A stretch of DNA of 64,000 nt. Source: Dyella acidiphila. Lineage in GTDB: Bacteria; Pseudomonadota; Gammaproteobacteria; Xanthomonadales; Rhodanobacteraceae. Below are positions 6,714 to 63,866 of this stretch, in pieces (positions within the stretch are counted from its first letter, which is position 1; every line of letters starts with the position of its first letter). The notes beneath the pieces are model-generated. The model saw only the letters and a program-made list of their open reading frames with translations. It made no database searches and had not been told where the DNA came from. The stretch covers positions 806,001 to 870,000 of the forward strand of contig NZ_JACZZA010000001.1 of the NCBI RefSeq assembly GCF_014863405.1, written 5' to 3'. A program made the position numbers and the translations under genes.

Positions 6714-7159
6714 TGCATCGCGCAGCGGCGCCAACCCTGCCGACAGAGATCTGATCGACGCAGCGCTCGCGTTCATTCCAGCTGGGTAGCCGCACTTCCC
6801 GCATCGGTCACTTCAAGCTGACCTACAAGCCTTGCCATTACATTGCGGCCAATTCGATCCCTGCGCCTACATGCCTGTAGGCCGCACCAGGCTTGCAGTC
6901 CAAACAATCGAATAACTTTATTCAAAGTCCTCTCAGGATTTGCAAGCCGCTTTCGCACGATCCATACATTGCCGCGCAGCAAGAGAACGGACACGCCCGG
7001 CCCCGCTGGCACGCAGCACATGGATACGTGCACTTCAAGTTTCCACACGCCTCTTCATGTGCGCAGCGCGCGGTTGACCCTCTTCGTCATCCCGGCTCCC
7101 GCCTCCTGCTGCTGCGGACAGCAGCGAATTCCTTTTCATAAGCAGAAGAATGGAACAAC
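6714..7159. other. intergenic region with module duplicated upstream of the next paralogue
   Basis: No gene is seen in these 446 bases. The segment 6961-6990 (TCCATACATTGCC, then CAGCAAGAGAACGG) recurs at 8082-8110 in front of the intact propeller gene, showing that the upstream region was duplicated together with the coding sequence. Confidence 0.6.
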
Positions 7160-7845
7160 ATGAAGCGAAAGATCTCCGCAATCCTGTTGGCACTATGCAT
7201 GGCGGGCTCCGCCTGCGCCGCCACGCCGAAGAATGGCCATGTGCCGATGCCGGATGCCGATGCAGGCCGCCCAGGTGTGCTCGACGTCAATCCGGCCATC
7301 GATGAACACCCGCCGGTCACGGCGTTTGACGACGTCGACCAGGCTCCGATCAGCGCTGCCCAACTCAGCATCAGCTGGCTGCCGGCAGAGACGCTGGGCT
7401 TGACGTTATCCCTGCTGATAGGCGGAACCACTGCCGGCATGCGCGGCCTGGGCGCGCTGAATCTGCTGGATCCCGTCAATGGGCGCGGCATGGAGCTGAG
7501 CGATCCCGGCAACCTCGCGTTAGATGCGCAGCATCTGCCGGAGGCATGGCCATGGCCAGCATCCGGTCGCCTCCTGGCGCGCAAGCAACAGGCACGATGG
7601 CATGGCTTTGGCCGCAACCATCCATGCCACAGGCAGCTGCAAGGCAATCGAAGCGTGGGCCGATGGCACAAGCCCATGAGCCACCGTGCCTGCACACATG
7701 GGCGATCGATCCGACAACACGATATTCGCAGCAGATTCCAAAGCCGGCTGGACGGGAGGCATCGTGCACGAGGCCGATCCCGGCACTGGCATCCGCAGCA
7801 GGCTCAGCGCACTCGGCAATATCGTCCGAGGCTGCACGCCTTAAG
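7160..7845 (+). pseudogene. frameshifted paralogue of the downstream secreted beta-propeller-like gene
   Basis: The reading starts as a good copy of the next gene: signal peptide MKRKISAILLALCMAGSACA, then GVLDVNPAIDEHPPVTAFDD and LLDPVNGRGMELSDPGN, matching VLDVNPVTGERRTITDFG and VMDPSTGIRTRLSDFND. After about 7520 this frame turns into arginine/histidine-rich nonsense. A different frame then shows homologous text (SDNTIFAADSKAGWTGGIV and DPGTGIRSRLSALGNIVRG) ending at TAA 7843-7845, matching SDNTVLVTDSGSG and LNTGARTALSTFDNPAQG. At least one internal frameshift and an in-frame TGA separate the halves. It is also shorter than its partner, so internal deletion is likely. Confidence 0.82.
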
Positions 7846-8283
7846 GCGTCGGTGATCAACAGGCCGATGTTTCGGGCGTCCTGGAAGAATCACTGATAGC
7901 CGCAGCCAGTCCCCGCCAGGGGCTGCGCGACTGCCGACCGAGATCCATCCATCAACGAGTCCGTGCCACGCGCGGTTTCGTTGGCGCCGCTTATCCCAAA
8001 ACCACTGCCGTTCAGACGGCCAAACGAATCATCTCACCTTTTCAACATTCTTCCAGGATCCGCGCACGGCGGTTCGTGCCATCCATACATTGCCATCCAG
8101 CAGGAGAACGAGGTCATTTGATTTCGCCAGCAGGCAGAACAAGGGCACTTGCACACAAGCTCGCTTGCAAACGGCCATGCACGACCGGGTCGCGCTACAT
8201 ACCTGTATTCGATCTCAAGTCGCTCGTCTTTTGCACGATCAAAGCGCAATTCACTCCCGTCCACAAAAAAGGATTTCAACGAC
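7846..8283. other. remnant and upstream region of the intact propeller gene
   Basis: This gap of 438 bases contains no supported gene. It includes the duplicated leader segment (8082-8110) and a ribosome site AAAGGA at 8268-8273 for the next gene. Confidence 0.5.
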
Positions 8284-9387
8284 ATGAAGCGAAAGATTTC
8301 CACCGTGCTGCTTATGCTCGGTCTTGCAGGCTCTGCCTATGCAACATCGCCGACCCTCGGCCACCTGTTTATTACGGACAGCCTCGGCGGCACGGCGCAT
8401 CGAGGGGCTGTTCTCGATGTGAACCCTGTTACCGGCGAGCGCCGGACCATCACCGACTTCGGCAACAGCAGCCAGGGGCCAGTGAGCGAGGGTTACCAGA
8501 CGATAGCGTGGCTGGACGCCGATGTACTCGACTCCAAGACTCCCCTGCTGGCCACCATGTCCAGCACTCTCGATGTCATGGATCCATCGACGGGAATCAG
8601 GACCCGGCTCAGTGACTTCAACGATCCGGCCCAAGGTCCGGTGGGCGGAGATTTCGGCGGCAAGGAACTGCTGGTGCTGCCAGCCAAGGCGGGTGCACCA
8701 CTTCAAGCGCGCATCCTGGTACTGGACCCTAGCGCGGGCACGGAAGAAAGTGGTGCGATCTTTTCCGTCGATGCCGCGGGGCAACGCAAGATCATCGTCG
8801 ATTTTGGGGATGGCACGAGTCCCGTGCCCTTTTCCCTGTTTCACATGACGTATCTGTCGGATAACACCGTATTGGTGACGGACTCGGGATCCGGCAGCGC
8901 CGAAGTCGGCCTGCGCCCGGCCGTGCTGTACAAGGTGGACCTCAATACCGGTGCGCGCACGGCTTTAAGTACGTTCGACAATCCCGCCCAGGGCTGGGTC
9001 CCTTATCCAGCCACCTCTGATCAATATTGGAGATACCTCTCCGATGTTCTGGTAAGTCCATCGGGAAAAATATTCGCAACGGTATCGCTGGTGCGACCGA
9101 CTCCTGGGGGCTTCCTCGTGGAGATCGACCCCGCCACCGGGCGCCGCACGGTCATCAGCGACTTCGGCGATCAACAGCAAGGACGGCCCGGCTTCGGCAC
9201 CAATGCGATGAGCTGGATGCCCAACGGCTTGATCGCGGTTGCCGACCTGACCGGCGGCCAGTTCAACAACGCGCTCGCTTTTGCGGTTGATCCGGTAACC
9301 GGCAACCGTCGCGTAATCACGTCGGGGATTGACTCGTCCCAAGGACCGCTGGTCGAAGGCATAGACGACATGACTATCGCCCCGTGA
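8284..9387 (+). CDS. secreted beta-propeller-like (NHL/SMP-30-type) repeat protein
   Basis: The product has 367 residues with a signal peptide (MKRKISTVLLMLGLAGSAYA). The mature part holds repeated units of the form DPxTGxRTxLSDFxNPAQGP, for example DVNPVTGERRTITDFGNS, MDPSTGIRTRLSDFND, VDLNTGARTALSTFDN, IDPATGRRTVISDFGD and VDPVTGNRRVITSG. This spacing suggests one blade each in a propeller of five or six blades. ATG 8284 is chosen because AAAGGA lies ten bases upstream and the signal peptide begins there, although the frame is open further upstream. The function, binding or hydrolysis, is not known; no catalytic residues were recognised. Confidence 0.82.
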   Translation: MKRKISTVLLMLGLAGSAYATSPTLGHLFITDSLGGTAHRGAVLDVNPVTGERRTITDFGNSSQGPVSEGYQTIAWLDADVLDSKTPLLATMSSTLDVMDPSTGIRTRLSDFNDPAQGPVGGDFGGKELLVLPAKAGAPLQARILVLDPSAGTEESGAIFSVDAAGQRKIIVDFGDGTSPVPFSLFHMTYLSDNTVLVTDSGSGSAEVGLRPAVLYKVDLNTGARTALSTFDNPAQGWVPYPATSDQYWRYLSDVLVSPSGKIFATVSLVRPTPGGFLVEIDPATGRRTVISDFGDQQQGRPGFGTNAMSWMPNGLIAVADLTGGQFNNALAFAVDPVTGNRRVITSGIDSSQGPLVEGIDDMTIAP

Positions 9388-9534
9388 ACGTAAGGCTGCC
9401 GGCGCCGACGCATGGAAACCCCGTGCACCGGCAGCTCATCGCACACCAAGGCAAGTACGGAGACCTCGACATGGGATTTGAGGTCTCAGGCACTTTGCAT
9501 GTGATGCGTGGACACGTGTCACTTGGTGCTTGAG

Positions 9535-9619
9535 CAGGTTGGGTTACCTCGGATTGGATCCGGGGTAGCCCAACCATTCCGCCGAGAACGTTGGGTTACG
9601 CTGCGCTAACCCAACCTGC
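9535..9619. repeat. dispersed repeat, GTTGGGTTACGCTGCGCTAA family, copy 1
   Basis: The element contains GGTTGGGTTAC and the palindromic core GTTACGCTGCGCTAAC with AACCCAACC. Two further copies are at 22644-22725 and 57866-57948. It has the look of a REP/BIME-like mobile palindrome. No RAYT transposase is in the window. Confidence 0.85.
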
Positions 9620-9640
9620 GGAGCCCTTGTTTTTGCGGGG

Positions 9641-9943
9641 TCAGTGCAGGGTGAACAGTTTGTCGAAGCCTGCGACGCGCAGCGTACCGCGCAGTGCCGT
9701 AGTGGCATTGACGATGCGGATTTCCGCGTGGTCGCCGCCGGCGTGCTCGCGCAGCAGCAACAGCATGCCCAGCGCGGAACTGTCCATGCTTTCCACTTCT
9801 TCCAGGTCGATCACGTAGCTGCGCGAGCGGGTCTTGCCCAGACAGGCGTCGTGGAACTGGCGGTGCACGCTGAAATCGAAATGGTTGCCGAACTGCAAGG
9901 TGAGGCAGTCCTGTTCGATATCGTGCTGAACATTCAGGCTCAT
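9641..9943 (-). CDS. STAS-domain protein (anti-sigma factor antagonist-like)
   Basis: The product has 100 residues and is a single STAS domain: strands VIDLEEVESMDSSALG followed by the helix MLLLLREHAGG and the final strand ADVNATTALRGTLRVAGFDKLF-like tail. The DSSALG loop carries the serine that is phosphorylated in SpoIIAA-type proteins. Its start is 12 bases after the MCP stop, so it is the last gene of a cheB-MCP-STAS run. A role tuning the chemotaxis locus is inferred from position only; a partner kinase of the SpoIIAB type is not visible nearby. Confidence 0.88.
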   Translation of the reverse strand: MSLNVQHDIEQDCLTLQFGNHFDFSVHRQFHDACLGKTRSRSYVIDLEEVESMDSSALGMLLLLREHAGGDHAEIRIVNATTALRGTLRVAGFDKLFTLH

Positions 9944-9955
9944 GGCTTCACTCCG

Positions 9956-11158
9956 TTAGAACAGTTCGATTTCGCCGGCATCCATGCTGTTCTGCAGGGC
10001 CGGGCCGCGCGAGCGGATACGTGCTTTTTCGCGCTGCATGGCCAGGCGCTCGCGCACGCGCTCGGAATGCTGGCGCAGCAGCTGGGCGTCGGCCGGCTCG
10101 CAGGCCAGCGTCTGGATGTCGTTGGTGGTTTCGGCCACCACGCCCTGCAGTTCCACCAGGCGCGAGCGCGTCTGGTTGAGCAGCTGGCTGAGGATGTCCT
10201 CGAACTGCAGCGAGCGGATGGTGGTGGATACGTCGTTGCCCAGGCCGCGGTTGATCTGCACCACCTGGTCGGCCACCGCATTGGTGCGCGCGTCGCTCTC
10301 GGTTACATGCGCCAGCATCGCATCGATGCCGCCCTTGGCCGACAGCGCCACGTTCAGATCCTGCGAAGCCAGTTCGCCGATCAGGCCACGCACCTGCTCC
10401 ATCGCAATGCGGGCGCGCTCCACGTGGCTGCCGATCTGCTCGTTGAACTGATTGGAATGGCTGGCCAGGTTGCGGATTTCGCCCGCCACCACCGCAAAGC
10501 CGCGACCCGCCTCGCCGGCACGCGCCGCTTCGATCGCGGCGTTCAGCGCCAGCAGGTTGGTTTCTTCGGCGATGGTGTTGACGTTCTTCAGCAGCGCGAA
10601 CACCGCGTCCATTTCCTTGGACATGCCGTCGATGCGATAGACGATGCGCAGGCTTTCGCGCGAAAGCTGCACGATCAGGCCGACGAAGTGATCCAGCAAG
10701 TCGCTGGTGCGCGCGGCGAAATCCTGCACCGACACGCCGCCGTCTTCGGAGGTGATGATCTGCTTGAGCAGCGACTGCTGCATGCCGGTCTTCTGCGACA
10801 GGCCGTCGAAGCCGCCGCCGAGTTCGTTCACCGCATCGCGCAGCAGGTCCAGCGCCTGGTGCAGTTCGCGCGAGGCGTGGCCGAGTTCGTCGACCAGGGC
10901 GCCGCGCACATCTTCCAGTGCTTCGCGCACCGGTGCGGTGTCGGGCTCGGCCGCGGCCTCCACCACGATCGCCGGCGTGGCCAGCTTGCGGCATTCGAAG
11001 ATCCACACCGCGCACAGCAGGGTGACCAGTACCGGCGCCATCCACACCGGATTCCAGGCCAGGCACAGCACCAGCGCTACTGCGCTGGCGCCGATGCCGA
11101 CCAGGGGACGCGGTGCCGCAAGCGGCCGAGCGATGAGATTGGGAATATTCACGGACAT
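9956..11158 (-). CDS. methyl-accepting chemotaxis-type protein lacking a periplasmic sensor domain
   Basis: The product has 400 residues. Two closely spaced membrane segments (about 18-60) are joined without a sensor domain, so it senses internally or is a coupling receptor. A long cytoplasmic coiled coil holds the signalling tip [20 protein letters not shown] followed by [15 protein letters not shown]. It ends in GEIELF, nearly the same as the CheD end (GEVELF). ATG 11158 is chosen as the first start before a plausible membrane segment. It lies 16 bases after cheB in the same direction. Confidence 0.87.
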
Positions 11159-11174
11159 AAGATGTTCCGATACG

Positions 11175-12272
11175 TCAGGAGGCAGCGCGACGTGCGCTGA
11201 CGATGGGTTGTTGCGCCAGCACCAGCAAGCGCTCGGCAATCTGTTCCAGCGGGAGTTTTTCGTCGGCGGCGCCGAGCTTCCAGGCCGCGCCCGGCATGCC
11301 CCACACCACTGAGCTGGCTTCGTCCTGCACCACGGTGGGTGCGCCGCATTCGCGCAGTTCCAGCAGGCCGCGGGCGCCGTCGTCGCCCATGCCGGTCAGC
11401 AGGACGCCGATCGCAGCGGCGCCGATGCTGGCCGCGGTAGAGCGGAACAGCACATCCACGCTGGGCTTGTGGCGGTTCACTTGCGGGCCGTCGTGCAGGC
11501 GGCAGACATGCTTGGCGCCGTCCCACATCAGCAGCAGGTGTTCGCCACCCGGCGCGATATACGCATGGCCGGGCTGGATCGGCTGGCCGTCGCGCGCTTC
11601 GCATACGCGCATCGCCGAGCAGTTGTTCATGCGTGCCGCGAACGGACCGCTGAAAGCTGCCGGAATATGCTGGGTAATCACGATCGGCGGCGCATCCGGC
11701 GGCATCGATTCCAGCAGCACACGAATCGCTTCGGTACCGCCGGTGGACGCGCCCACCGCAATGATGCGCTGGCTGCCGCGCGTACCGGCCGACTGCGAAC
11801 GCGGCAACACCGCATCGGCGGTGAGGCGCGGCGGCACATCCAGCTTCTGCACGGTGGTGTACGGACGCGGACGCGTGCGCGCGGCCATCTTCACTTTCTG
11901 GCAGATTTCCTGCGCGCTTTCGGCAAAGCAGTTGGCCAGGTCGCTGGACGGCTTGGTGAAGAAATCCACGGCACCGATTTCCAGTGCACGCAGCGTCACT
12001 TCCGCACCGCGCTCGGTCAGCGAGGACACCATCACCACCGGCATCGGCCGCAGGCGCATGAGGTTTTCGAGGAAGGTGAGGCCGTCCATGCGCGGCATTT
12101 CCACGTCGAGCGTGAGCACGTCGGGATTGAGCTGCTTGATCTTGTCGCGCGCGATCAGCGGATCGGCCGCCACGCCGACCACCTCGATGCCGGGATCGGA
12201 ATCGAGCATGGCCGACAACAGCTTCCGCACCAGGGCAGAGTCATCGACTACCAATACGCGAACTTTGTCCAT
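11175..12272 (-). CDS. cheB: CheB, chemotaxis receptor methylesterase/deamidase
   Basis: The receiver domain occupies about residues 1-120 with acidic residues D10-D11 and phospho-acceptor D56 ([11 protein letters not shown]). The C-terminal methylesterase has catalytic Ser in GASTGG, His in ITQHIP and Asp in TGMGDDG. It demethylates receptors made methylated by CheR and may deamidate glutamines. The start MDKVRVL at 12272 is preferred because GAAGG sits just upstream; an in-frame ATG six codons earlier is possible. Genes for CheD and CheR lie upstream in the same direction. Confidence 0.96.
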
Positions 12273-12426
12273 TGCCGCCTTCTCGTTCAATACTTCAAGT
12301 GTTCAATCAAGAGCGAAGGATGAGCAGCGAGGGCCGCGGACGTTGCATCGCAGGCCCCCTGTAATGACATGCGCGCATCGCGCCCTCGCCACTCATGTTT
12401 CGCTCCTGACCTCAAGATGGGCTGTG

Positions 12427-13083
12427 TCAGAACAGCTCCACCTCTCCCTTTATCGGATCATTCGCCAACTGCTTGAGATACCGCTGCTCGTTGGCCGCCA
12501 GTTCGGCGTCGCGCTGGCTGCGCAGCTGGCGCACGCGCACGCGGCCGCTGGCCGGGAAGAACTGCAGCTGGCGCGGATAGATGTCGCCCACGTCCTCGGC
12601 CACCAGCGGCAGGCCTTCGGTTTCCAGGTAGCGCTTCACGAAGGCGATATTGCGCTTGCCCACGTCGGTCATCTGCGCCAGTACGCGGCCGCCGCCGAAG
12701 ATCTTCACGGTCAGCGCATCGCGCCGGCCGCCGGCCTTCAGAATCGCGTTGATCAACTGTTCCATCGCATCGCTGCCGTAGCGCGCGGCGCGGCCGATGG
12801 CGGCCGACCAGTCGTTGCGCTCGCCGCTCATCGGCTCGGGCAGCATGAAGTGGTTCATGCCGCCCAGGCGCCGCTCGTTGTCGCGGATGCAGGCCGACAC
12901 GCACGAGCCCAGCACGGTGGAGACCATTTCTTCCTGCGAACTCACGTAATACTCGCCCGGCAGCACTTTCACCGTCATGCAGGCATGGGTGGGATCCCAG
13001 AACCGGCGCATGTGCTCGAAGCCGGGCAATACGGCAGCCGCTGAGTTGGGCGCAACGGCTACGCCAGTAACAAGTGCGGTCAT
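12427..13083 (-). CDS. cheD: CheD, chemoreceptor glutamine deamidase
   Basis: The product has 218 residues with the CheD catalytic Cys61 in LGSCVSACIRD and His78 in GGMNHFMLP. CheD deamidates receptor glutamines and in some bacteria binds CheC. No CheC is present here. The extension after residue 190 ends in GEVELF, echoing the end of the neighbouring receptor-like protein. The start codon overlaps the cheR stop by four bases (ATGA), so the two are translated together. Confidence 0.95.
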   Translation of the reverse strand: MTALVTGVAVAPNSAAAVLPGFEHMRRFWDPTHACMTVKVLPGEYYVSSQEEMVSTVLGSCVSACIRDNERRLGGMNHFMLPEPMSGERNDWSAAIGRAARYGSDAMEQLINAILKAGGRRDALTVKIFGGGRVLAQMTDVGKRNIAFVKRYLETEGLPLVAEDVGDIYPRQLQFFPASGRVRVRQLRSQRDAELAANEQRYLKQLANDPIKGEVELF

Positions 13084-51269: not shown

Positions 51270-52724
51270 TCAAGCAACGACCGTGCCACTCTGCGGCGGC
51301 GTGTCGCTGCCGCGCGCGCATGACTGCAAACCGTACTTGCGCAGCTTTTCCACCAGCGTGGTGCGCTGCATGTGCAGCAGCTTCGCCGCGTGCGCCACCA
51401 CACCGTCGGTGATGTCGAGTGCTTGACGGATCAGGCCCACTTCGATGTCGGCCAGGTGGTCTTTCAGATCCACGCCGCCTTCGGGCAGCAGCACTTCGGT
51501 GTCCAGCGCACGGCCCTGCACCTGCGCGGGCTTGGCCTGGCCGTCGAGCATGGCGCGCAGAATGCCGCCGGCTTCGTCGATCGGCTGCACGCCGCGGTAT
51601 TTTTCCGGCAGGTCGCCCGCACGCACTTCGCCGTTGGGATACAGAATGGCCAGGCGCTCGACCAGGTTGGACAGTTCGCGCACATTGCCCGGCCAGGTGT
51701 GCTGGCGCAACGACTGCAGCGCGCTGCTGCTGAAGCGCACGGTGCTGAGGCCGCGGCGCTGCAGGCGCTGGTTGAATTCGGTGACCAGCTCCGGCATGTC
51801 TTCCAGGCGTTCGCGCAGCGCCGGCATTTCCAGCGGGAACACGCTCAGGCGGTAATACAGGTCTTCGCGAAAACGGCCTTCGGCGGTGGCGTTTTCCAGA
51901 TTGCGGTGGGTGGCGGCGATGATGCGCACGTCGCAGCGCTGGGTGCGGTTGCTGCCCACGCGCTCATACATGCGTTCCTGCAGCACGCGCAGCAGCTTCA
52001 CCTGCATGGGCAGGCTCATGTCGCCGATTTCGTCGAGGAACAGCGTGCCGCCCTCGGCCATTTCGAAACGGCCCTTGCGCGTGCTGATGGCGCCGGTGAA
52101 GGCACCTTTTTCATGGCCGAACAATTCGCTTTCGAGCAGCTCGGCGGGAATCGCGCCGCAGTTGATCGCCACGAACGGCTTGTCGCGGCGCGGGGAACAA
52201 TCGTGGATGGCGCGCGCCACCATTTCCTTGCCGGTGCCCGACTCGCCCAGCACCAGCACGCTGGAATCGAACGGCGACACCTGGCGGATCAGCGCATTGA
52301 CGCGGCCCATCGCGGTGGAGCCGCCGACCAGGCGCAACGGCGCGGTGCCGGTGCTGACGCGCGGCGACGGTGCGCGGCGCACGGCTTCGGCCAGGCGCTC
52401 GTAGCGCAGCGGGAAATCCAGCACTTCGATCTGCGTGGCATACGGGGAGCTGGACTGGGTCAGGCGCGGCAGCTGCGGCGAATCGGCGCCAACCAGCATC
52501 AGCAATTGATCGGCGGGCATGTCCAGCGTCGCCATTGCCTGCTCGAACTGCTCATCGTCGTCGATGCCGCCCACGTACACCGCACGCCAATCGTGCGTGA
52601 TCGAAGCCGGCGGTTGTGACGCATCCCATCGCTGCGGGATGTAACCCATGAACTGCAAGGCCGAAGTAACGATGTCGGCACGGGTACCGTTGGATTCGAT
52701 GATTAGTACGTTGCTGTTTGGCAT
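51270..52724 (-). CDS. fleQ: FleQ, sigma-54-dependent master flagellar regulator
   Basis: The product has 484 residues. An N-terminal receiver-like FleQ domain (1-120) lacks the phospho-acceptor context. The AAA+ domain has Walker A GESGTGKE (160-167), GAFTGA (207-212, contacts sigma-54) and [10 protein letters not shown] (Walker B). The C-terminal helix-turn-helix ends in [20 protein letters not shown]. FleQ family members bind cyclic di-GMP and are checked by FleN, also encoded here. ATG 52724 fits the family start. Confidence 0.96.
51273..51288 (-). promoter_or_regulatory. sigma-54 promoter of fliE, inside the fleQ 3-prime end
   Basis: The minus strand reads TGGCAC-GGTCG-TTGCT, a perfect consensus. 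It overlaps the last codons of fleQ and lies about 41 bases before the fliE start. Confidence 0.93.
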
Positions 52725-53077
52725 GAGCACGAGTCCTGCATTTCGCTGCGACTGCTGACGAACAACAACGATCCCCATCCAAATGTCGTGTTGTCCCCTG
52801 TGTGTCAGCTATCCGTCGTGACACGTGTGCCAATGCAGCAAGAAGAACGCCAAAGAGTTGGTGTTCCGACGCGTCACTTCGTCCGTTTCGTGACGCGGGT
52901 CGCCTTCCGTACCTCGATGAATTCACATATTAGAACGATCAAAATAAGGCGTTTATCAATGAGTTAGATAAATGCCTGCAGGACGCCCGGAGGCTTGTTC
53001 AGCGCCATGCGCGGCGCTATGCATACGAATGCATGCCGGAAATTCGGCGTATCCGGCCTCTCGTGACGTGATGTGAA
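52725..53077. promoter_or_regulatory. fleQ upstream region
   Basis: This gap of 353 bases holds an AT-rich segment (about 52920-52970), an inverted repeat GCGTCAC-N12-GTGACGC (52871-52877 and 52890-52896) and a candidate sigma-54 site at 52837-52852. An ACACGTGT palindrome lies near 52821. No other gene is seen; rpoN2 is not present here. Confidence 0.6.
52837..52852 (-). promoter_or_regulatory. candidate sigma-54 promoter of fleQ
   Basis: The minus strand reads TGGCGT-TCTTC-TTGCT with correct spacing of the GG and GC pairs. It differs at one base from the candidate fliK site across about 20 bases. It lies 113 bases before fleQ. Confidence 0.5.
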
Positions 53078-54661: not shown

Positions 54662-56131
54662 TCAGCTGCTGCTGCTCTGCTTGCTCAGCGCGGTGAGGTA
54701 GGAGCTGGTGTTGTTCAGCGAGCTCATCAGCGTGCCGAGATTGGTGTACTGCTTCACCAACTGCTGCTGGTAGGTAGCCATGCGCGCATTCAGCGCGGTC
54801 TGCTGGGTACCCAGGTTGGTGATATCCGAATTGAGATTGGTGATCTTGGTCTGCAGGATGCCGGTGCTACTGTTGTAGTTGGTCACCAGGCTGCTCATCT
54901 GGGTGGCGATGCCGTTGCTGCTGGAGAACAGGTTCTGCACCGACGACGGATCGTTGCTCAGCGCCGTGGCCAGCTGGGTGCTGCTGAGCGACAGGCTGCC
55001 GTCGGAATTGCGCGTGATGCCCAGATTGGCCAGCGAGCCGATGCTGTTGCCGGCCACCGAGCTGCTCATCACCTGCGAGAGCTGGCCCTGGATCGCCGCC
55101 AGGGTGGGATCGCCGAGCAGGATGCCGGCTTCCTTGGTGGTGGAGTCGTAGCTGGTGAGCTGGCTGACCGCGGTGTTGTAGGCGTTGTACGCCGTGACGA
55201 AATCGTTGACGGCGGTACTGATCGGCGCGGTGCTTTGCGCCACCGTCAGCGTGGAGCTGCCGGTGGAAGTGAGATTCATGGTGACGCCGGTCAGCGCGCC
55301 GCTGACGTTGTTGGTGGCGCTGTTGACCGAGATACCGTCGACCGTCAGCACCGCATTGGCCGCCTCGTGGTTGCCGGCGGTATTGAGCCCGGTGGCCAGC
55401 GTGCTCAGGCCGCTGCTGCTGCCGCTGTCGGCGCTGATGGTGAAGCCGTTGGCGGTACCGGTCTTGCTGGAGGTGAGCACCAGCTGGTCGCCGTTCACGC
55501 CCGACACCACCGTGGCGCTGACGCCCGGATTGTTGCTGGCGTTGTTGATGCTGGAGGCGACGTCTTCCAGGGTGTCGGTCGAAGACACCGAAATATCCAT
55601 GCTGTTGCTGCCCACGCCGATGGTGAGCGAGCCCGCCCCCACCGCCGCGCCGCTGCTGTAGGCGGTGCTGGTACGCATCTGCGCCTGGGCCAGCTGGGTC
55701 ACCGAGATGTCGTAGGTGCCGGGCGTGGCGTCGGGCAGCGTGGTGGCCGAACCGATGCTGCCGGAAGCGCCGCTGGTGAAAGTGGCGTTATACGTTTGGT
55801 AGGTGCTGCTGGAAGTCAGTTCCGACAGCGCCGATTCGAGGCCGCTGAGCACCGTGCTCAGGCCGGTGAGGCCGGCGATCTCGTTGTTGTCGGAGTTGGT
55901 CTGATTGGTGATCTGCTGCTGCGGGCCGGCTTCGGCCGCATTCACCAGCGCGGTGATGATCGAGCTCACATCCAGGCCCGAGCCCAGGCCGAGCGAACTC
56001 AGGATGCCGGTGCCGGAGATGTTGGATGCACCGGTGACGCCGCTGGCGCTGCTGCTGCCGGTGGCGCTGGAGCCGGTGATCGCGCTGGAGAGCGCGGTAG
56101 AAGTGCTTCCGATGCTGGAGATGCTGCTCAT
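54662..56131 (-). CDS. fliD: FliD, flagellar filament cap protein
   Basis: The product has 489 residues with the FliD N-domain (GLGSGLDVSSIITALVNAAE) and the C-domain (GITRNSDGSLSLSSTQLATA, ARMATYQQQLVKQYTNLGTL). It is very rich in Ser/Thr/Gly/Ala and low in charged residues. GAGG lies upstream of ATG 56131. Confidence 0.96.
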   Translation of the reverse strand: MSSISSIGSTSTALSSAITGSSATGSSSASGVTGASNISGTGILSSLGLGSGLDVSSIITALVNAAEAGPQQQITNQTNSDNNEIAGLTGLSTVLSGLESALSELTSSSTYQTYNATFTSGASGSIGSATTLPDATPGTYDISVTQLAQAQMRTSTAYSSGAAVGAGSLTIGVGSNSMDISVSSTDTLEDVASSINNASNNPGVSATVVSGVNGDQLVLTSSKTGTANGFTISADSGSSSGLSTLATGLNTAGNHEAANAVLTVDGISVNSATNNVSGALTGVTMNLTSTGSSTLTVAQSTAPISTAVNDFVTAYNAYNTAVSQLTSYDSTTKEAGILLGDPTLAAIQGQLSQVMSSSVAGNSIGSLANLGITRNSDGSLSLSSTQLATALSNDPSSVQNLFSSSNGIATQMSSLVTNYNSSTGILQTKITNLNSDITNLGTQQTALNARMATYQQQLVKQYTNLGTLMSSLNNTSSYLTALSKQSSSS

Positions 56132-56316: not shown

Positions 56317-57570
56317 TTACTGCAACAGCTTCAGGATGTTCTGCGGTTCGGAGTTGGCGGTTGCCAGCACCGAGATACCTGCCTGCTGCAACACCTGCGC
56401 CTGGCTCAACTGCGCCGTGGTAGCGGCGAAGTCGGTGTCCTGGATCGAGCTTTGCGACGAAGTCAGGTTGGTCTGCTGCGCACTCAGCGTGGAGATCGCG
56501 GACTGGAAGCGGTTCTGCACGGCACCCAGGTTGCTGGAGAAGGTGCTGACCGTGGTCAGGGCCGCATCGATACGCGAGATCAGCTGGTTGGCATCGTCCA
56601 CCGTCAAAACATCGCCGCCTGCCAGCGAACCGGAGGCTTCGATCACATTGCCCGCCGTGTAAGCCGCACCCGAGGCTGCGAAGCCCGAGGCCGCCGCACC
56701 GATACCGCTGGCGCCGAAGGACAGTGCACCGGAGGTGAGGTTGGCAAAGCCGCCCGAAGCGGCGGAAGCCGCCGACGCACCCGTCACCGAGGCGCCGTTA
56801 ACAGCCAGCTCGCCGGTGGAGTAGATGTTGATGCCGCCGCTGGCGTTCACCGCTGCGCTGACGCCGTTGATGCCGGCCGCGTTGATCGCATCGGCCACGT
56901 CCTGCGCACTGCCGGCGGTGATGCTGCCGGAGAAGGTGTAGCCCTGGCCGTCAGCGCCGGTGATGGACAGACCGCTCAGGCTCATCGTCGCACCGGTGGC
57001 ACCGGAGGCGTTCAGGAACGCGCCGCTGATGTCGCCCGTGGAGATTTCCGAAACCTGGCCCATCTGGCTGGTGGTGACGCCCTGGCCCAGCTGCACGTTG
57101 ATCGACTGGCCGACGTTGGCACCAATCTGGAACGACAGGCTGCTGGTGGAACCGTTCAACACGTTGGTGCCGTTGAACGTGGTCTGGTTGGCGATACGGG
57201 TGATTTCCGACAGGTACTGCTGCACCGAAGTGTTGATGGCGGAGCGGTCGGAAGACTGGTACGTACCGTTGGCCGCCTGCACGGCCAGATCGCGGATCGA
57301 CTGCAGGTTGGAGGTGATCTGGCTCAGCGCCGAACCCGCCGTCTGCGCCAAGTTGATGGCGTCGCTGGCGTTCTGGCTGGCCTGGTTCAGACCGCCGATC
57401 TGGGTCTGGAAGCGCTGCGAGATCGCATAGCCGGCGGCGTTGTCGGCCGCGGTATTGATCTTCAGACCCGAGGACAAGTCTTCGGTCGCCGTGCTCAGCT
57501 TGCTCGACGAAGAAGTCAGGTTGTTCTGGGCTTGCAGCGAGGCGATGTTGGTATTGAGAAAGAGTGACAT
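56317..57570 (-). CDS. fliC: FliC, flagellin
   Basis: The product has 417 residues. The conserved N-terminus (TNIASLQAQNNLTSSSSKLS, KINTAADNAAGYAISQRFQT) and C-terminus (NRFQSAISTLSAQQTNLTSS, SQAQVLQQAGISVLATANSE) flank a variable, Ser/Ala/Gly-rich centre near 180-310. The many serines and threonines there could be O-glycosylated. ATG 57570 has GGAG six bases upstream. A FliA-type promoter lies 78 bases before the start. Confidence 0.98.
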   Translation of the reverse strand: MSLFLNTNIASLQAQNNLTSSSSKLSTATEDLSSGLKINTAADNAAGYAISQRFQTQIGGLNQASQNASDAINLAQTAGSALSQITSNLQSIRDLAVQAANGTYQSSDRSAINTSVQQYLSEITRIANQTTFNGTNVLNGSTSSLSFQIGANVGQSINVQLGQGVTTSQMGQVSEISTGDISGAFLNASGATGATMSLSGLSITGADGQGYTFSGSITAGSAQDVADAINAAGINGVSAAVNASGGINIYSTGELAVNGASVTGASAASAASGGFANLTSGALSFGASGIGAAASGFAASGAAYTAGNVIEASGSLAGGDVLTVDDANQLISRIDAALTTVSTFSSNLGAVQNRFQSAISTLSAQQTNLTSSQSSIQDTDFAATTAQLSQAQVLQQAGISVLATANSEPQNILKLLQ

Positions 57571-57647: not shown

Positions 57648-57674
57648 TTTTCGGCGTGTCAAGGGAATACTTAA
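57648..57674 (-). promoter_or_regulatory. fliC: sigma-28 (FliA) promoter of fliC
   Basis: The minus strand reads TTAAGTAT-N11-GCCGAAAA: six of eight and seven of eight matches with exact spacing. It is 78 bases before the fliC start. Confidence 0.88.
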
Positions 57675-57781
57675 GCGCTTCGATGCAAAAAAATCTCAGC
57701 GGCAGCAAGGAGATGGCGCATAAAAATGTGATGCAGTGTGCCTAAAGGTTTTGCGGCCACTGCCGACGCGATCGCGCTTTT

Positions 57782-57820
57782 CTCCCTCTCCCCTCGGGGA
57801 GAGGGCCGGGGTGAGGGGCC
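57782..57820. repeat. GGGAGAGGG palindrome copy
   Basis: CCCTCTCCCCTCGGGGAGAGGG followed by CCGGGGTGAGGGG, upstream of fliC. Confidence 0.75.
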
Positions 57821-57865
57821 AACCTCGCGTCGTGGCGATGCGATGCGTCGCTTCGATACAGCCCC

Positions 57866-57948
57866 GTAGGTTGGGTTAGCGCAGCGTAACCCGACGATCT
57901 TTCTTCGTAGCCGCATCGTTGGGTTACGCTGCGCTAACCCAACCTACG
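57866..57948. repeat. dispersed repeat, GTTGGGTTACGCTGCGCTAA family, copy 3
   Basis: A complete inverted pair with arms GTAGGTTGGGTTAGCGCAGC and GCTGCGCTAACCCAACCTAC around a 33-base spacer. Confidence 0.93.
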
Positions 57949-57972
57949 CGCTGCCGACACGAGCGCGATCTG

Positions 57973-58083
57973 CTCCCTCCCCTACGTGAAGTAGGGGAGG
58001 GTCGGGGTGGAGTGAAGCCCACACGCTTGCGGCAAGCTCGAACAACCCCACCCCAACCCTCCCCTGCCCCTGCAGGGGAGGGA
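57973..58083. repeat. inverted pair of CCCTCCCC palindromes
   Basis: Near copy of the 41302-41412 element: CCCCTACGTGAAGTAGGGG, then CTTGCGGCAAGCTCG, then CCCTCCCCTGC/GCAGGGGAGGG. Confidence 0.88.
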
Positions 58084-58108
58084 ACGGATTACGCAAGCAT
58101 CGATTGCT

Positions 58109-58124
58109 TGGCACCAAGCTTGCT
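58109..58124 (+). promoter_or_regulatory. sigma-54 promoter of the giant glycosyltransferase
   Basis: The plus strand reads TGGCAC-CAAGC-TTGCT, a perfect -24/-12 match. It lies 91 bases before the start codon and ties the gene to sigma-54 control, most likely through FleQ. Confidence 0.92.
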
Positions 58125-58214: not shown

Positions 58215-61200
58215 ATGCGTTGTGTGCTTGCGATCTGCGCGATCTTCAAGGACGAGGCCGCGTATCTGCGCGAATGGGTGGAGTTCCATCAGCTGATGGG
58301 GGTGGAGCGGTTCTACCTCTATAACAACAACAGCTCCGACCGTTACCTCGACGCCCTGCAGATGCATATCGAGTCGGGCGCGGTGGTGCTGCACGAGTGG
58401 CCGCAGCAGCACGCGCAGATGCAGGTGTACGAGCACTGCCTGAAGGCTCACGGCGAGGAAACCGACTGGCTGGCCTTCCTCGACATCGACGAATTCCTGT
58501 TCTCGCCCAAGGCAAAACTGCTGCCGGACGTGCTGGCCGATTACGCCGAGCACCCGGCCGTGGGCGTGAACTGGGTGATGTTCGGCTCCGGTGGCCACCA
58601 GCGCAAACCGCCGGGCGGCGTGCTGGAGAACTTCCTGCGCCGCGGCGACCTGCACGGTGGCCTGCCCTACCCGCACCTGCGCCTGCCCGACGGCAGCTAC
58701 CGCTCGGAGAACGCGCATATCAAGAGCATCGTGCAACCGTCGAAGGTCGCACGCTGCGGCAATCCGCATCACATGATCTATGCCAACGATGCGCGCGCGG
58801 TGGACGAGAACCACCAGCCGATCGAGGCCTCGTTCTCCGACAAGGTGTCGGTGGAACACCTGCGCATCAATCATTACTGGAGCAAGTCCGAAGAAGAGTG
58901 CCAGTACAAGTTCAACAAGGGCCTGGCCGACGGTACCGGCCAGCGCGACTGGAACGAGTTCGTGCTGCACGACAAGATCCTCAACACCACGCATGACGAC
59001 ACCGTGCTGCGCGTGGTGGCCCAGCTGGGTGTACTGCCGCCGCGCTGGCCGCTGGAGACCTTCGAGCGCAATGGCGAAGGCGTATACCACTCGCCGCTGC
59101 GCGAACGTCCCGCACACAAGGCTATCCACGACACCGCCACGCACCTGTTCGAACTGCTGCAGCAAACGCAGGACACCGGCCTGTTCGCAGCCGTACTGGC
59201 GAAGGAGATCCATGGCCGCGCCAGTGCGCTGCAGCTGTCGCCGCGCCGCGCCAACCCCTTGCAAGCACTGGAGATCGCCGCCGACAGCCGCGTGCTGGAA
59301 ATCGGTGGCGGCAGCGCGCTGGCGCAGGCGTGGATCGAGCGCGGCTGCAGCGTGGACGTGATCGAATTCGCCCCACACTGGGCTCGCGTGATCGCCGCGC
59401 GCCTGCGCGAGCAACCGAATGCGCGCGTGTTCCAGGCCAGCCTGCGCGAGCTGGAGTTGCATGCGGACTACGACATCGTCAGCCTGCATTTCAACGACGA
59501 CTACGCCGAAGCGTGGCCGCGCGGCGAAGCCTTGCGCGAGGCGATTACGCTCGCCGTCGCTGCGCTGAAACCCGGCGGCGTATTGCTGCTGGCCACCGGC
59601 AACCGCCTGGCCGACACCGGCAAGCGCAACCTGCTCACGCGCAGCCAGCTTGAGGCAGCGCTGCGCACGGCAGGCTTGAACCAGATCGATACGCAGCTGG
59701 CGTTTCCCGATGCGCAGCTGCCGGAACTGCTGATCGGCGCGCACGCGCTCGATGCCGCGCCGGAACTGCGCGCCGACGAACTGATCGCCCAGCGCGCGCT
59801 GCTGCGCGACGGCGGCAAGGAAGCGGTGCAATGGGAACGCCATCGCGAGGCCCATACGCTGGGACAATATGCACCGGGCCTGTGGCTGCTCGCACGCCGC
59901 GACGGCGTGGCAGCGCCGCTACGCGCGAACCTGCTGGCGCAGACCTATGCCGACAACCGTGTGCCGGCGCTCAACACCGTCACCGACTACGTCAGCGGCA
60001 GCGACGGCATCCAGGTGCTGCCGCGCGCCATGCTGCCGGGCCAGTACTGGAACACCGCCGGCTTCGAACAGGCACTCGCGCCGCATGCCTACGCCGACGG
60101 CCGCTCGCTGCTGGTGGAAGTGCGCAAGACCATCCACGAGCAGCGCACCGACCGCCTGATCAACCTGCTGCGCCGGTGGGGCGCGCTGATCTATGCGCAG
60201 GCCAACGACGAGGACAAGATCCCGGTCGAATGGCTGGATGCGCTGCCGACGCATATCTATCTGGACGAACACGGCGGCATGCATTTCCATGGCGGCGAAT
60301 GGCATGCGCGCCAGCCGATCGAGAAGCAGATTCCGCTGTACGTGGGCCTATGGCAGATCGCTTATGAAAGCGGGCTGGAAAACCTGCTCGGCATCGCCTC
60401 GCCGGTTGAGCGGGTGACCTGGCTGTGCAAGCGCCTGATGATCGACGCGTCCGCCGAATGGATCGGACACGGCCGCACCATCAACGAATCCTTCGCCCGC
60501 GAAATCCACGAGGGCGATTGCTGGAACCGCACCGACCGCCACTTGAAGATTCTGCCGGAGTGGCTGATTCCGCCGCCGCCCTCGGATCTCTACAAACACT
60601 GGCAGGCCCAGCAGCAGCTGGGCGAGGTGGCGATTGCGCAAGCGCTGCAGCGTATCGAGCAACTGGGCACGCCGCCGCGCATCGACGTACTGCTGATCGA
60701 TACGGCCGGCGATGCCGAAGCCGTCGCCATCACTCAGGCCAGCCTGCAGAGCCAGCATTATCCGCATCACCAGCTCAGCGTGATCTCCGGCGACGAGGCA
60801 TGGGTGGCGCGCGTCAACCGCCATCTCGCCACCAGCGAGGCCGACTGGATCCAGCTCGCCTTTGCCGGCGACATGCTGCATCCGGCCGCCTTGCTGCTGC
60901 TGGCCGAGCGCGTCGCCGCGCAGCCGTATCTGCGCGCGGCCTATGCCGACGAAGACATGCATCGCCAGGGCGTGTTCGAGAATCCGATCTTCAAGCCGGA
61001 TTTCAACCTGGACATGCTGCGCAGCTATCCGTATGCGGGCCGCGCCATCGCCTTCGGGCGCGAGCGCTGCCTGGCGCTGGGCGGCTTGAACGAAAGCTAT
61101 GGCGACATGGCTGCGCACGACCTGCTGTTCCGCCTGCTGGAAGTGGACGGCCTGCACACCATCGGCCATATCGGCGAAGTGATGTATCGCGCCGTGCTGC

Positions 61201-63212
61201 CGTACACGCACTGGCTGGCGTCGGAATCGGTGAAGACGCATAGCGCCAGCATCGTTTCCGCCCACCTCGCCCGCATCGGCGTGGCACATGCGATGGAGCC
61301 CGGCGCACTGCCCGGCTTCAATCGCGTGCTGTACCGGCATGCGCAGCAGCCGCTGGTGTCGATCATCGTGCCGACCAAGGACCAGCTGCCGATGCTCAAC
61401 GGGCTGATCGACAGCCTGTTGTCCAAGACCACCTACACCCATTACGAACTGCTGATCGTCGACAACAACACCGAGGAGCCGGCGGCGCTGGCCTATCTGG
61501 ACGGCATCGCCCAGCTCAACAGCAGCCAGGTCCGCGTGCTGCGCTATCCGCATCCGTTCAACTATTCGGCGATCAACAATTTCGCCGCGCGCGAGGCACG
61601 CGGCGAGTATTTGATCCTGCTCAACAACGACACCGCCGTACTGCACGGCGACTGGATCGAGGCGCTGCTCAATCATGCGCAGCGGCCGGAGGTGGGCATC
61701 GTCGGCGCCAAGCTGCATTACCCTGACGGACGCATCCAGCACGGCGGCGTGGTGCTGGGCCTGCGCGGCCCGGCGGACCATCCGTTTATCGGCCAGCCGA
61801 TGGAATCGGATGGCTATATGCATCGCCTGCGCGTGGACCAGAACTACACCGCGGTCACCGCGGCCTGCCTGATGATCCGCAAATCGGTATACGACGAAGT
61901 CGGCGGCCTGGACGAACAGGATTTCAAGGTTTCCTATAACGATGTCGACCTGTGCCTGAAGGTCAATAAGGCCGGCTATCTCACCGTATGGACGCCGTAT
62001 GCACGCCTGATGCACGTGGGCAGTGTCAGCCAGACCAAGGTCGACAAGACCGCGCAGGACGCCAAGACCAAGCGCTTCCAGGGCGAACAGAGCGCGATGT
62101 ATCGCAAGTGGCTAGGCCAGCTCGCGCGCGATCCGGCCTACAGCATCAATCTGAGCATCGACGGCATTGGCTTCGAACTGGATGCGCAGCGCGGCAAGGG
62201 CTGGCAGCCGTTCAGTCAGCCGCTGCTGCCGCGCATGTTCTGCGTGGCCGCCGATGCGCATGGCTGCGGCCATTACCGCATCCTGCAGCCGTTCAATTCC
62301 ATGCAGCGCAGCGGCATGGTGGAAGGCATGATCGCCGGCCTGCATCTTTCGCCGGTGGCGATGGAGCGTTTCCAGCCGACCTCGCTGGTCTTGCAGCGCC
62401 AGATCACCGACACGCAGATCCGCCTGCTGGAGAGCTATCGCGACTTCTCGCGCGCGTTCAAGGTGTTCGAACTGGACGACTTGATCCACCAGATTCCGAT
62501 CAAGAGCCATTTCCACGGGCTGATGCCCAAGGACGTGGTGAAGTCGCTGCGCCGTTCGCTCGCTACGGTGGACCGTTTCGTGGTCTCCACCGAAACGCTG
62601 GCCGAGCAGTTCAAGGGCTTCCATGCCGATATCCGCGTGGTGCACAACCGCCTGCCGACCGACTGGTGGGGCGACCTGCCGGTCAGCCAGCGCCGCGTGG
62701 GCCGCAAGCCGCGCGTGGGCTGGGGTGGCGGCTCCAGCCATCGCGGCGATCTGGAATTGATCGCCGACGTGGTGCGCGACCTGGCCGATGAAGTGGAATG
62801 GGTGTTCTTCGGCATGTGCCCGGACAAACTGCGGCCGTACATTCACGAATTTCACAACGGCGTGCCGATCGAAGAGTATCCGCGCAAGCTGGCTTCGCTG
62901 AACCTGGACCTGGCCCTGGCGCCGCTGGAAAACAACACCTTCAACGAGTGCAAGAGCAATCTGCGCCTGCTCGAATACGGTGCCTGCGGTTTTCCGGTGG
63001 TGTGCACCGACATCGTCTGCTACGACAACGCGCTGCCGGTGACACGGGTGAAGAACCGCTACAAAGAGTGGATCGCGGCGATCCGCATGCATCTGGACGA
63101 CCTGGACGCCACTGCAAAAACAGGCGATGCCCTGCGCGATGCCGTGCAGCGCGACTGGATGCTCACCGACGACAAACTGCTGCAGTGGCGCGACGCGTGG
63201 CTGCCCAACTGA
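58215..63212 (+). CDS. giant multidomain glycosyltransferase (GT92-methyltransferase-GT2-GT2-GT4-like), candidate flagellin glycosylation enzyme
   Basis: The product has 1665 residues and no signal peptide or membrane segment. In order: a GT92-like (DUF23) domain, about 1-260, with MRCVLAICAIFKDEAAYLRE and D90-x-D92 in DIDEFLF; a class I methyltransferase, about 350-510, with VLEIGGGSA at 360-368; an unassigned region, about 590-800; a first GT2-like domain, about 815-1030, with YADED (D912-x-D914) and IFKPDFNLDMLRSYPY; a second GT2 domain, about 1045-1285, with VSIIVPTKDQ and NND at 1137-1139; a GT4-like C-terminus, about 1340-1665, with VGWGGGSSHRGD and CKSNLRLLEYGACGFPVVCT. GAGG lies upstream of ATG 58215. 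Position beside fliC and the sigma-54 site suggest flagellin as substrate; surface polysaccharide is the alternative. Confidence 0.9.
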   Translation: MRCVLAICAIFKDEAAYLREWVEFHQLMGVERFYLYNNNSSDRYLDALQMHIESGAVVLHEWPQQHAQMQVYEHCLKAHGEETDWLAFLDIDEFLFSPKAKLLPDVLADYAEHPAVGVNWVMFGSGGHQRKPPGGVLENFLRRGDLHGGLPYPHLRLPDGSYRSENAHIKSIVQPSKVARCGNPHHMIYANDARAVDENHQPIEASFSDKVSVEHLRINHYWSKSEEECQYKFNKGLADGTGQRDWNEFVLHDKILNTTHDDTVLRVVAQLGVLPPRWPLETFERNGEGVYHSPLRERPAHKAIHDTATHLFELLQQTQDTGLFAAVLAKEIHGRASALQLSPRRANPLQALEIAADSRVLEIGGGSALAQAWIERGCSVDVIEFAPHWARVIAARLREQPNARVFQASLRELELHADYDIVSLHFNDDYAEAWPRGEALREAITLAVAALKPGGVLLLATGNRLADTGKRNLLTRSQLEAALRTAGLNQIDTQLAFPDAQLPELLIGAHALDAAPELRADELIAQRALLRDGGKEAVQWERHREAHTLGQYAPGLWLLARRDGVAAPLRANLLAQTYADNRVPALNTVTDYVSGSDGIQVLPRAMLPGQYWNTAGFEQALAPHAYADGRSLLVEVRKTIHEQRTDRLINLLRRWGALIYAQANDEDKIPVEWLDALPTHIYLDEHGGMHFHGGEWHARQPIEKQIPLYVGLWQIAYESGLENLLGIASPVERVTWLCKRLMIDASAEWIGHGRTINESFAREIHEGDCWNRTDRHLKILPEWLIPPPPSDLYKHWQAQQQLGEVAIAQALQRIEQLGTPPRIDVLLIDTAGDAEAVAITQASLQSQHYPHHQLSVISGDEAWVARVNRHLATSEADWIQLAFAGDMLHPAALLLLAERVAAQPYLRAAYADEDMHRQGVFENPIFKPDFNLDMLRSYPYAGRAIAFGRERCLALGGLNESYGDMAAHDLLFRLLEVDGLHTIGHIGEVMYRAVLPYTHWLASESVKTHSASIVSAHLARIGVAHAMEPGALPGFNRVLYRHAQQPLVSIIVPTKDQLPMLNGLIDSLLSKTTYTHYELLIVDNNTEEPAALAYLDGIAQLNSSQVRVLRYPHPFNYSAINNFAAREARGEYLILLNNDTAVLHGDWIEALLNHAQRPEVGIVGAKLHYPDGRIQHGGVVLGLRGPADHPFIGQPMESDGYMHRLRVDQNYTAVTAACLMIRKSVYDEVGGLDEQDFKVSYNDVDLCLKVNKAGYLTVWTPYARLMHVGSVSQTKVDKTAQDAKTKRFQGEQSAMYRKWLGQLARDPAYSINLSIDGIGFELDAQRGKGWQPFSQPLLPRMFCVAADAHGCGHYRILQPFNSMQRSGMVEGMIAGLHLSPVAMERFQPTSLVLQRQITDTQIRLLESYRDFSRAFKVFELDDLIHQIPIKSHFHGLMPKDVVKSLRRSLATVDRFVVSTETLAEQFKGFHADIRVVHNRLPTDWWGDLPVSQRRVGRKPRVGWGGGSSHRGDLELIADVVRDLADEVEWVFFGMCPDKLRPYIHEFHNGVPIEEYPRKLASLNLDLALAPLENNTFNECKSNLRLLEYGACGFPVVCTDIVCYDNALPVTRVKNRYKEWIAAIRMHLDDLDATAKTGDALRDAVQRDWMLTDDKLLQWRDAWLPN

Positions 63213-63401: not shown

Positions 63402-63866
63402 ATGCGCACGCACGCACGCTTCATCCGCAAAACTGCTCTGGCCAGCCTGGTCGCTCTGTGCGCGGCTTCCACCGCCTTCGCCCAGACCGCCGCGCCCGCC
63501 ACCGGCCTGGGCCAGGCCTGGCCGGACGCCGCCGATCTCAGCGCCAGCCCGAACTGGCACGTGTACGTATTCGTGCTCAACGGCGTGAAGTACATCCAGG
63601 TCAATGACTTGAATGGCACCGTGCACGCGGCAGTGGGCACCGTCAATGGCACTGCATTTGCGCTGCCGGTCGGCGTCGATTCGAGCAACGTCGCCACCAA
63701 TTCGTCCTCGTCTTCCACCAGCACGACCACGCAGACGGTCTACAACGACGGCACCACCGCCGTGACCGCCACGCCGCAAAGCGATGGAACCACTCAGTTC
63801 AGCGCCAGCAATGTGCAGGCGGATCTGTGCGAGGGCAAGAACTGCAGCGGCACCGGTGGCTCGTGA
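63402..63866 (+). CDS. small secreted protein of unknown function
   Basis: The product has 154 residues with a signal peptide (KTALASLVALCAASTAFA). The mature part has NWHVYVFVLNGVKYIQVNDL, then a Ser/Thr-rich linker (SSNVATNSSSSSTSTTTQTV) and a C-terminal end with a cysteine pair (LCEGKNC). AGGGG lies seven bases upstream of ATG 63402. I do not recognise the family. Confidence 0.75.
   Translation: MRTHARFIRKTALASLVALCAASTAFAQTAAPATGLGQAWPDAADLSASPNWHVYVFVLNGVKYIQVNDLNGTVHAAVGTVNGTAFALPVGVDSSNVATNSSSSSTSTTTQTVYNDGTTAVTATPQSDGTTQFSASNVQADLCEGKNCSGTGGS

Follow-up and report, generated by a model that had tools for sequence, protein, structure and literature searches.

A putative multidomain flagellin glycosyltransferase with a genus-typical GT92–methyltransferase cassette beside fliC in Dyella

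Introduction

In Pseudomonas syringae pv. tabaci, two genes, fgt1 and fgt2, are located upstream of fliC, and Fgt1 is described as transferring rhamnose to flagellin serine (PMC3927599). In P. aeruginosa PAO1, a PA1091 (FgtA) mutant was the main source of nonglycosylated flagellin peptide (PMC11833859). For the type B GT2 of C. difficile (CDR20291_0242), the authors propose the addition and methylation of two rhamnoses (PMC5207246). The literature that we searched, most of it outside the subscription journals, yielded no description of a GT92 cassette or of cassette exchange on a GT2-GT2-GT4 core, nothing on-topic on a flagellin glycosyltransferase of Dyella, and nothing that joins flagellin and GT92 with a glycosyltransferase and a methyltransferase; for the domain architecture of FgtA, the same literature, with its few subscription papers, yielded Maf only.

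Here we consider a gene for a 1665-residue protein in the flagellar cluster of a Dyella strain, a soil bacterium, where it is oriented divergently from fliC. The window, that is, the whole stretch of DNA that was analysed, is 64,000 nucleotides long. A first-pass annotation had proposed that the protein carries four transferase modules and a methyltransferase in an arrangement that it did not recognize as a named family, and builds and methylates a flagellin glycan on a single chain. Most likely it is an Fgt1-type flagellin glycosyltransferase whose front half is a GT92-methyltransferase cassette typical of the genus.

The gene and its surroundings

The coding sequence of the putative glycosyltransferase (58215..63212, plus strand) was confirmed as a real open reading frame. 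Ahead of it, on the minus strand, lie FleQ, FliT, FliS, FliD and FliC. The nearest of these, fliC (56317..57570; PF00669, PF00700), encodes the flagellin that is the probable substrate, and its start is separated by 644 bp from that of the divergent glycosyltransferase gene; the first-pass annotation had likewise placed the two side by side. Further off are fliD (54662..56131; PF07195, PF02465) and a gene for a FleQ-like sigma54 activator (51270..52778; PF00158, PF06490), a candidate regulator of the glycosyltransferase gene.

On the 3' side, about 9.5 kb of other genes is followed by a stand-alone methyltransferase gene, flgL and flgK, with flgL about 10.3 kb downstream of the glycosyltransferase gene. 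The stand-alone methyltransferase (PF13489; L112:10742-11464, minus strand, equivalent to 878742-879464 of contig C11 in the strain's own genome) adjoins flgL and has close homologues near flgL at L032, L036, L038 and L039; it is a candidate for a second flagellin or glycan methylase. Closer by, at 63402-63866 on the plus strand, is a 154-residue open reading frame with a signal-peptide-like start, Ser/Thr-rich stretches and no Pfam match, and a similar frame of 154 residues lies 3' of the glycosyltransferase gene in D. flava (L033 15203-15667). The rmlD gene is present in the genome, which tells little, since it was also detected in 14 of 14 control genomes.

When might the gene be expressed? 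A sigma54-like promoter (TGGCACCAAGCTTGCT, 58109..58124, plus strand), with one mismatch to the consensus, begins 106 bp 5' of the ATG. The same or a nearly identical site, again with one mismatch, is found 106-109 bp 5' of the ATG in all 13 Dyella-type copies examined, which do not count as independent events because the upstream regions compared are homologous. Among 500 shuffled upstream sequences per copy, 0-0.4% scored as well, and the whole window contains 17 sigma54-like sites with up to two mismatches, the two strands combined. Together with the nearby FleQ gene, the site suggests co-regulation of the glycosyltransferase gene with the flagellum. A sigma28-like site at 57648..57674 on the minus strand, with three mismatches to its consensus, is tentatively regarded as a possible promoter of fliC. 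The intergenic region also has apparent GC-rich inverted repeats, judged by eye, at 57760-58090.

A conserved core and a variable front

Among 147 genomes of the family, matches over the full length (residues 1-1665) are confined to the genus among the matches listed, occurring in 11 of its 12 genomes, own genome included. In 13 genomes of other genera the strong match is restricted to the back part of the protein, starting at residue 763-792 in 11 of the 13, again among the matches listed. One member of the genus (G017) has flagellin and lacks the core. The architecture search that had been suggested at the outset thus delimits a genus-confined whole in the family sample and a back part that is found elsewhere with other cassettes. 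This part, the C-terminal ~880 residues (~790-1665), is a conserved GT2-GT2-GT4 core common to the Fgt1-type flagellin glycosyltransferases of Pseudomonas. The supposed novelty of the arrangement accordingly applies only to the front half; the back half is of an already known flagellin glycosyltransferase type.

A search of the genome collection with six peptide patterns gave 238 confirmed stretches, and the best 80 by similarity were retained; among these, the core is carried by Rhodanobacter, Frateuria, Pseudomonas, Xanthomonas, Lonsdalea, Brenneria, Marinobacter, Iodobacter and others. An alignment of 41 of the 92 distinct proteins, including that of P. amygdali (L101), showed 44-84% identity to the window protein over the core. 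One locus filed under Candidatus Eremiobacteraeota (L035), about 80% identical, has a Dyella-like fliD-fliC-GT cluster, and its contig is probably misbinned.

The core begins with a divergent, cryptic GT2-like module (residues ~818-1030; 60666..61304), recognized by hhalign, column counts and a confident model; hhalign paired it with the second GT2 module at 90.6% (E 1.6e-7). Tyr910 and Asp912 are invariant across the 41 rows. Where a DxD motif is expected, however, there is A884-G885-D886, with the aspartate in 27 of 41 rows, so this module may be structural, and its catalytic status is uncertain. The second GT2 module (residues ~1041-1310; 61335..62144) has the motifs NND (34, 32 and 34 of 41 rows, position by position) and DVD (38, 32 and 40 of 41). 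In its predicted structure, the closest fold among the matches listed is that of the polypeptide GalNAc-transferases. The core ends in a GT-B, GT4-like module (residues ~1337-1665; 62223..63209), in which F-N-x-C-K-S-N-L-R-L-L-E-Y-G is invariant or nearly so across the 41 rows.

In front of the core, a GT92 module (residues ~1-245; 58215..58949) matches PF01697 with 89.4 bits against a curated cut-off of 23, and its DxD motif reads LDIDEF; all 12 of the Dyella-type rows have DxD, as does P. toyotomiensis (L042). It is followed by a divergent class I SAM methyltransferase module (residues ~301-565; 59115..59909). Structure prediction for the N-terminal part reached only modest quality (mean pLDDT 67). 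A Rossmann-type methyltransferase fold is predicted for the methyltransferase module. At 15.5 bits the module remains under the Pfam cut-off of 21.2, whereas its relatives in L014 and L042 exceed the cut-off for several Pfam models. A middle region (residues ~566-790; 59910..60584), which gave no match in the Pfam scan, is homologous to L014 and partly to L024. The matches listed for the protein in Pfam and NCBIfam include no Maf domain. All of the domains first annotated were thus recovered in the one frame, with the qualification that the methyltransferase is divergent and the first GT2 cryptic.

Selection acts on every domain of the protein: within Dyella, mean dN/dS is 0.125 for GT92, 0.225 for the methyltransferase, 0.172 for the middle region, 0.216 for the first GT2, 0.063 for the second GT2 and 0.101 for GT4.

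Is the cassette active in this strain? Motif I of the methyltransferase (59283-59336) reads EIGGGSA, whereas the 11 Dyella-type relatives all have a GCGGG loop that is one residue longer. The shortening occurs in the window species only among the 12 Dyella-type rows, and it makes methylation less certain here than in the relatives. Thus, the count of four transferase modules and a methyltransferase is right as to domains, while the activity of two of them, the first GT2 and the methyltransferase with its shortened SAM loop, is in question. It is conceivable, if unlikely, that the core glycosylates flagellin while the cassette as a whole, or just its methyltransferase, has a structural role or no activity in this species and any methylation is left to the separate enzyme encoded near flgL. 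Such an arrangement would be in keeping with the altered motif, the sub-threshold Pfam score, the presence of that separate gene here and at related loci, and the existence of a 912-residue core without any cassette. It is harder to reconcile with dN/dS values well below 1 in both modules and with the retention of the GT92 DxD motif throughout the Dyella-type rows; furthermore, G-G-G-S-A may still bind SAM. An active cassette is the reading that we prefer.

Linkage to flagellin

The core is found mostly next to flagellar genes. Among the best 80 of the 238 stretches, 77 loci have a homologue of FliC, FliD, FlgL or FlgK in the flanks (up to 10 kb), and the number rises to 78 if FliG/FliM at a locus of X. 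arboricola (L067) are counted. One locus without a flagellar neighbor (L037) is a contig of 5.9 kb. In P. amygdali (L101), the order is flgL, a 1200-residue frame with the core, a 1015-residue homologue, fliC and fliD; by species and gene order, rather than by published sequence, the first of the two frames would be fgt1. At L124 (G144; 5197-12965), two flagellin genes enclose the glycosyltransferase gene.

Flagellin also accompanies the core across genomes. In the family sample, all 24 genomes in which the core matches strongly have it, against 79 of 147 overall (hypergeometric 5e-8). In 23 of the 24, a flagellin match is no more than 5 kb from that of the core; in the other (G066), the two are on different contigs. 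In a class-wide sample of 369 genomes, drawn independently of the 1665-residue protein, the core was matched at E 1e-100 or better in 35 genomes, and 34 of these have flagellin, against 202 of 369 overall (6e-9). Both probabilities are inflated by the relatedness of the genomes, and the counts rest on tallies and the top rows of match lists. For the 34 core genomes of the class sample other than our own, flagellin lies within 10 kb of the core in 25 and within 20 kb in 26, as measured over 42 of 81 flagellin rows (leaving aside FlgL-like rows of low score and additional copies whose contigs lack a core). Of the eight that have no flagellin within 20 kb, four have core matches without the GT4 end (G153, G291, G304 and G509), two are assemblies of at least 500 contigs (G213 and G379), one (G364) has flagellin on contigs other than that of the core, and one (G323) has no flagellin. 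Taken together, flagellin is well supported as the target.

A few core copies are found in other surroundings. In Pseudomonas viridiflava (L050), a core with an RgpF-type cassette is not in a flagellar cluster; its neighbors are a GT2, a methyltransferase and a DUF6311 protein. The second core copy of G092 (L113, contig C3, 5517-11381) lies apart from flagellin and is aligned with genes for a DegT-type aminotransferase and a hexapeptide transferase, surroundings reminiscent of a viosamine-type sugar island.

Could the protein be an O-antigen or exopolysaccharide transferase that sits in a flagellar cluster by chance? These two non-flagellar copies would fit such a role, as would the family proteins that match the second GT2 module only (about 1042-1308), which are common among the matches listed. 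A Xanthomonas gene, rbfC, is described as an LPS-associated biofilm gene (PMC3130047). Homologues consistently located in O-antigen clusters had been named at the outset as grounds for giving up the flagellin hypothesis. Rather than in an O-antigen cluster, the gene is found in a flagellar one both in the window and in most of the relatives examined, although some core copies, as noted, are not. Because of this location and of the co-occurrence of the full core with flagellin, to which the sigma54-like site may be added, we regard a polysaccharide role as quite improbable. That the targets are instead the flagellin-like hook proteins (FlgK, FlgL or FliD) or another surface protein is scarcely credible: flgL lies just ahead of the gene in Pseudomonas loci such as L075-L111 and downstream of it in the strain considered here, but the Dyella gene is paired divergently with fliC, flagellin is close by in nearly all core-bearing family genomes, and Fgt1 is described as acting on flagellin (PMC3927599).

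Exchange of N-terminal cassettes

In order to compare the front parts, the 92 distinct proteins (from 104 loci) were cut at the start of the core. Labels were assigned by Pfam for the window and 20 other N-terminal parts and by homology to 25 chosen fragments for the remainder, so domains unlike those fragments will have been missed. The front half is variable, with 15 labels, "none" included. GT2 alone is the most frequent (52 of 92), followed by GT92-MT-middle (13), GT4 (6), nothing recognized (6), GPT-MT (3; the "GPT" label traces to a single Pfam match just under the cut-off, PF04464 in L051), GT4-RgpF (2) and GT2-GT2 (2); eight labels occur once each, among them GT92-MT in P. toyotomiensis and MT-middle in L014. 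The 13 proteins with GT92-MT-middle, the Dyella version, are 12 from the genus and the one at L035. A GT92 label in L024 rested on 16 bits; GT92 is absent from the complete Pfam scan of this protein, and the label was not counted.

In a quickly built tree of the core with 69 of the 92 rows (21 Pseudomonas and two Lonsdalea rows were omitted as near-duplicates), the 15 labels require at least 20 changes, against a mean of 37.6 (range 34-40) in 200 label shuffles. Thus, the cassettes track descent and yet have been repeatedly replaced. GT92 accounts for two of the changes: the core of P. toyotomiensis groups with Pseudomonas cores, apart from Dyella, and its sister (L055, 77% identical) has a methyltransferase without GT92. 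In P. toyotomiensis, a PF13578 methyltransferase gene (L042:15297-15947) separates the GT92-MT-core gene from fliC. In the class sample, at E 1e-20, the GT92 part matched its own genome only, and the methyltransferase part alone matched 12 further genomes.

The gene for the 912-residue core that has no cassette (L025/L122) is followed, after 27 bp, by a stand-alone methyltransferase gene. Its product shares 34% identity, over 152 residues, with the methyltransferase that is part of the fusion in Andreprevotia (L051). The methyltransferase is thus fused to the core in one lineage and encoded by an adjacent gene in another. A pattern scan found a methyltransferase-like frame just 3' of the core in three of 89 proteins with enough downstream sequence; such neighbors are either uncommon or often missed by the pattern, which also overlooked the PF13578 gene 3' of L042.

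What would such variation mean? One possibility, to which we give somewhat less than even credence, is that the flagellin-recognizing GT2-GT2-GT4 core is a fixed platform onto which N-terminal cassettes (GT2, GT4, RgpF, GPT-MT, MT, GT92-MT and others) have been swapped during evolution, so that a single gene programs the flagellin glycan; in Dyella, the core sugars would be followed by a GT92-added sugar and then by O-methylation, with a single chain carrying out every step. The domain order could in that case be used to read off the outer glycan. Flagellin glycans influence motility and recognition and differ among close relatives, and a fixed core with an exchangeable front in one gene would be a compact route to that diversity, making glycan structure partly predictable from sequence and providing natural chimeras for the comparison of modules. 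GT92 is familiar mainly from eukaryotic galactan and core-fucose enzymes, and its presence on a bacterial flagellin transferase would broaden the role of the family.

Proposed function

We consider it probable that the protein is a multidomain enzyme that O-glycosylates flagellin and is produced along with the flagellum. The core would place the first sugar, perhaps rhamnose as in the case of Fgt1, on serine or threonine residues of FliC, and probably attaches the second sugar as well. The N-terminal cassette would then extend or cap the glycan, with the GT92 module attaching a further sugar and the methyltransferase module O-methylating it. The start of the glycan on FliC by the core is the likeliest of these steps, given the gene order of P. 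amygdali, which matches that of fgt1 and fgt2, and the transfer of rhamnose by Fgt1. The second GT2 module may be the protein-directed one, as its GalNAc-transferase-like fold and strong conservation suggest, although GT-A folds are mutually similar and such a match does not establish acceptor use. The extension by GT92 and the methylation are deduced from domain content. More generally, we infer that FliC is the acceptor, that the protein acts in the cytoplasm, which bond each module forms and with which sugars, that the product is methylated, and that the modules act sequentially on one polypeptide. Of the original proposal, the flagellin target has stood up well, on the evidence of both linkage and co-occurrence, and the single-chain assembly line is plausible from domain content and has published precedents.

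Comparison with known systems

Neither the core nor the idea of fused modifying domains is new, and glycosyltransferase-methyltransferase fusions that act on flagellin have already been described. Fgt1/Fgt2 share with the Dyella protein the flagellar location, the multidomain single chain and, at the fgt1 position of L101, a homologous GT2-GT2-GT4 core (44% identity) (PMC3927599). The L101 protein, however, has a GT2 domain in front rather than GT92 and a methyltransferase, and the glycan methyltransferase of P. syringae, VioM, is described as a separate protein (PMC3927599). The remaining systems are likened to the Dyella protein by their descriptions rather than by sequence. In FgtA/PA1091, according to the published account, the flagellin glycosyltransferase is fused to another activity that modifies the glycan, in that case a phosphotransferase (PMC11833859). 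The C. difficile type B GT2 is likewise a flagellin glycosyltransferase with a methyltransferase domain, and it is described with GT2 and methyltransferase domains only (PMC5207246). The enterobacterial GT41/GT2-methyltransferase proteins are fusions in flagellin islands beside fliC, but nearly all of them are reported as GT41 (PMC4875605). WsaE of Geobacillus stearothermophilus, described as a single soluble polypeptide in which a methyltransferase at the N terminus is joined to two rhamnosyltransferase domains, resembles the Dyella protein in domain content only, and its product is an S-layer glycan on a lipid carrier (PMC2943079).
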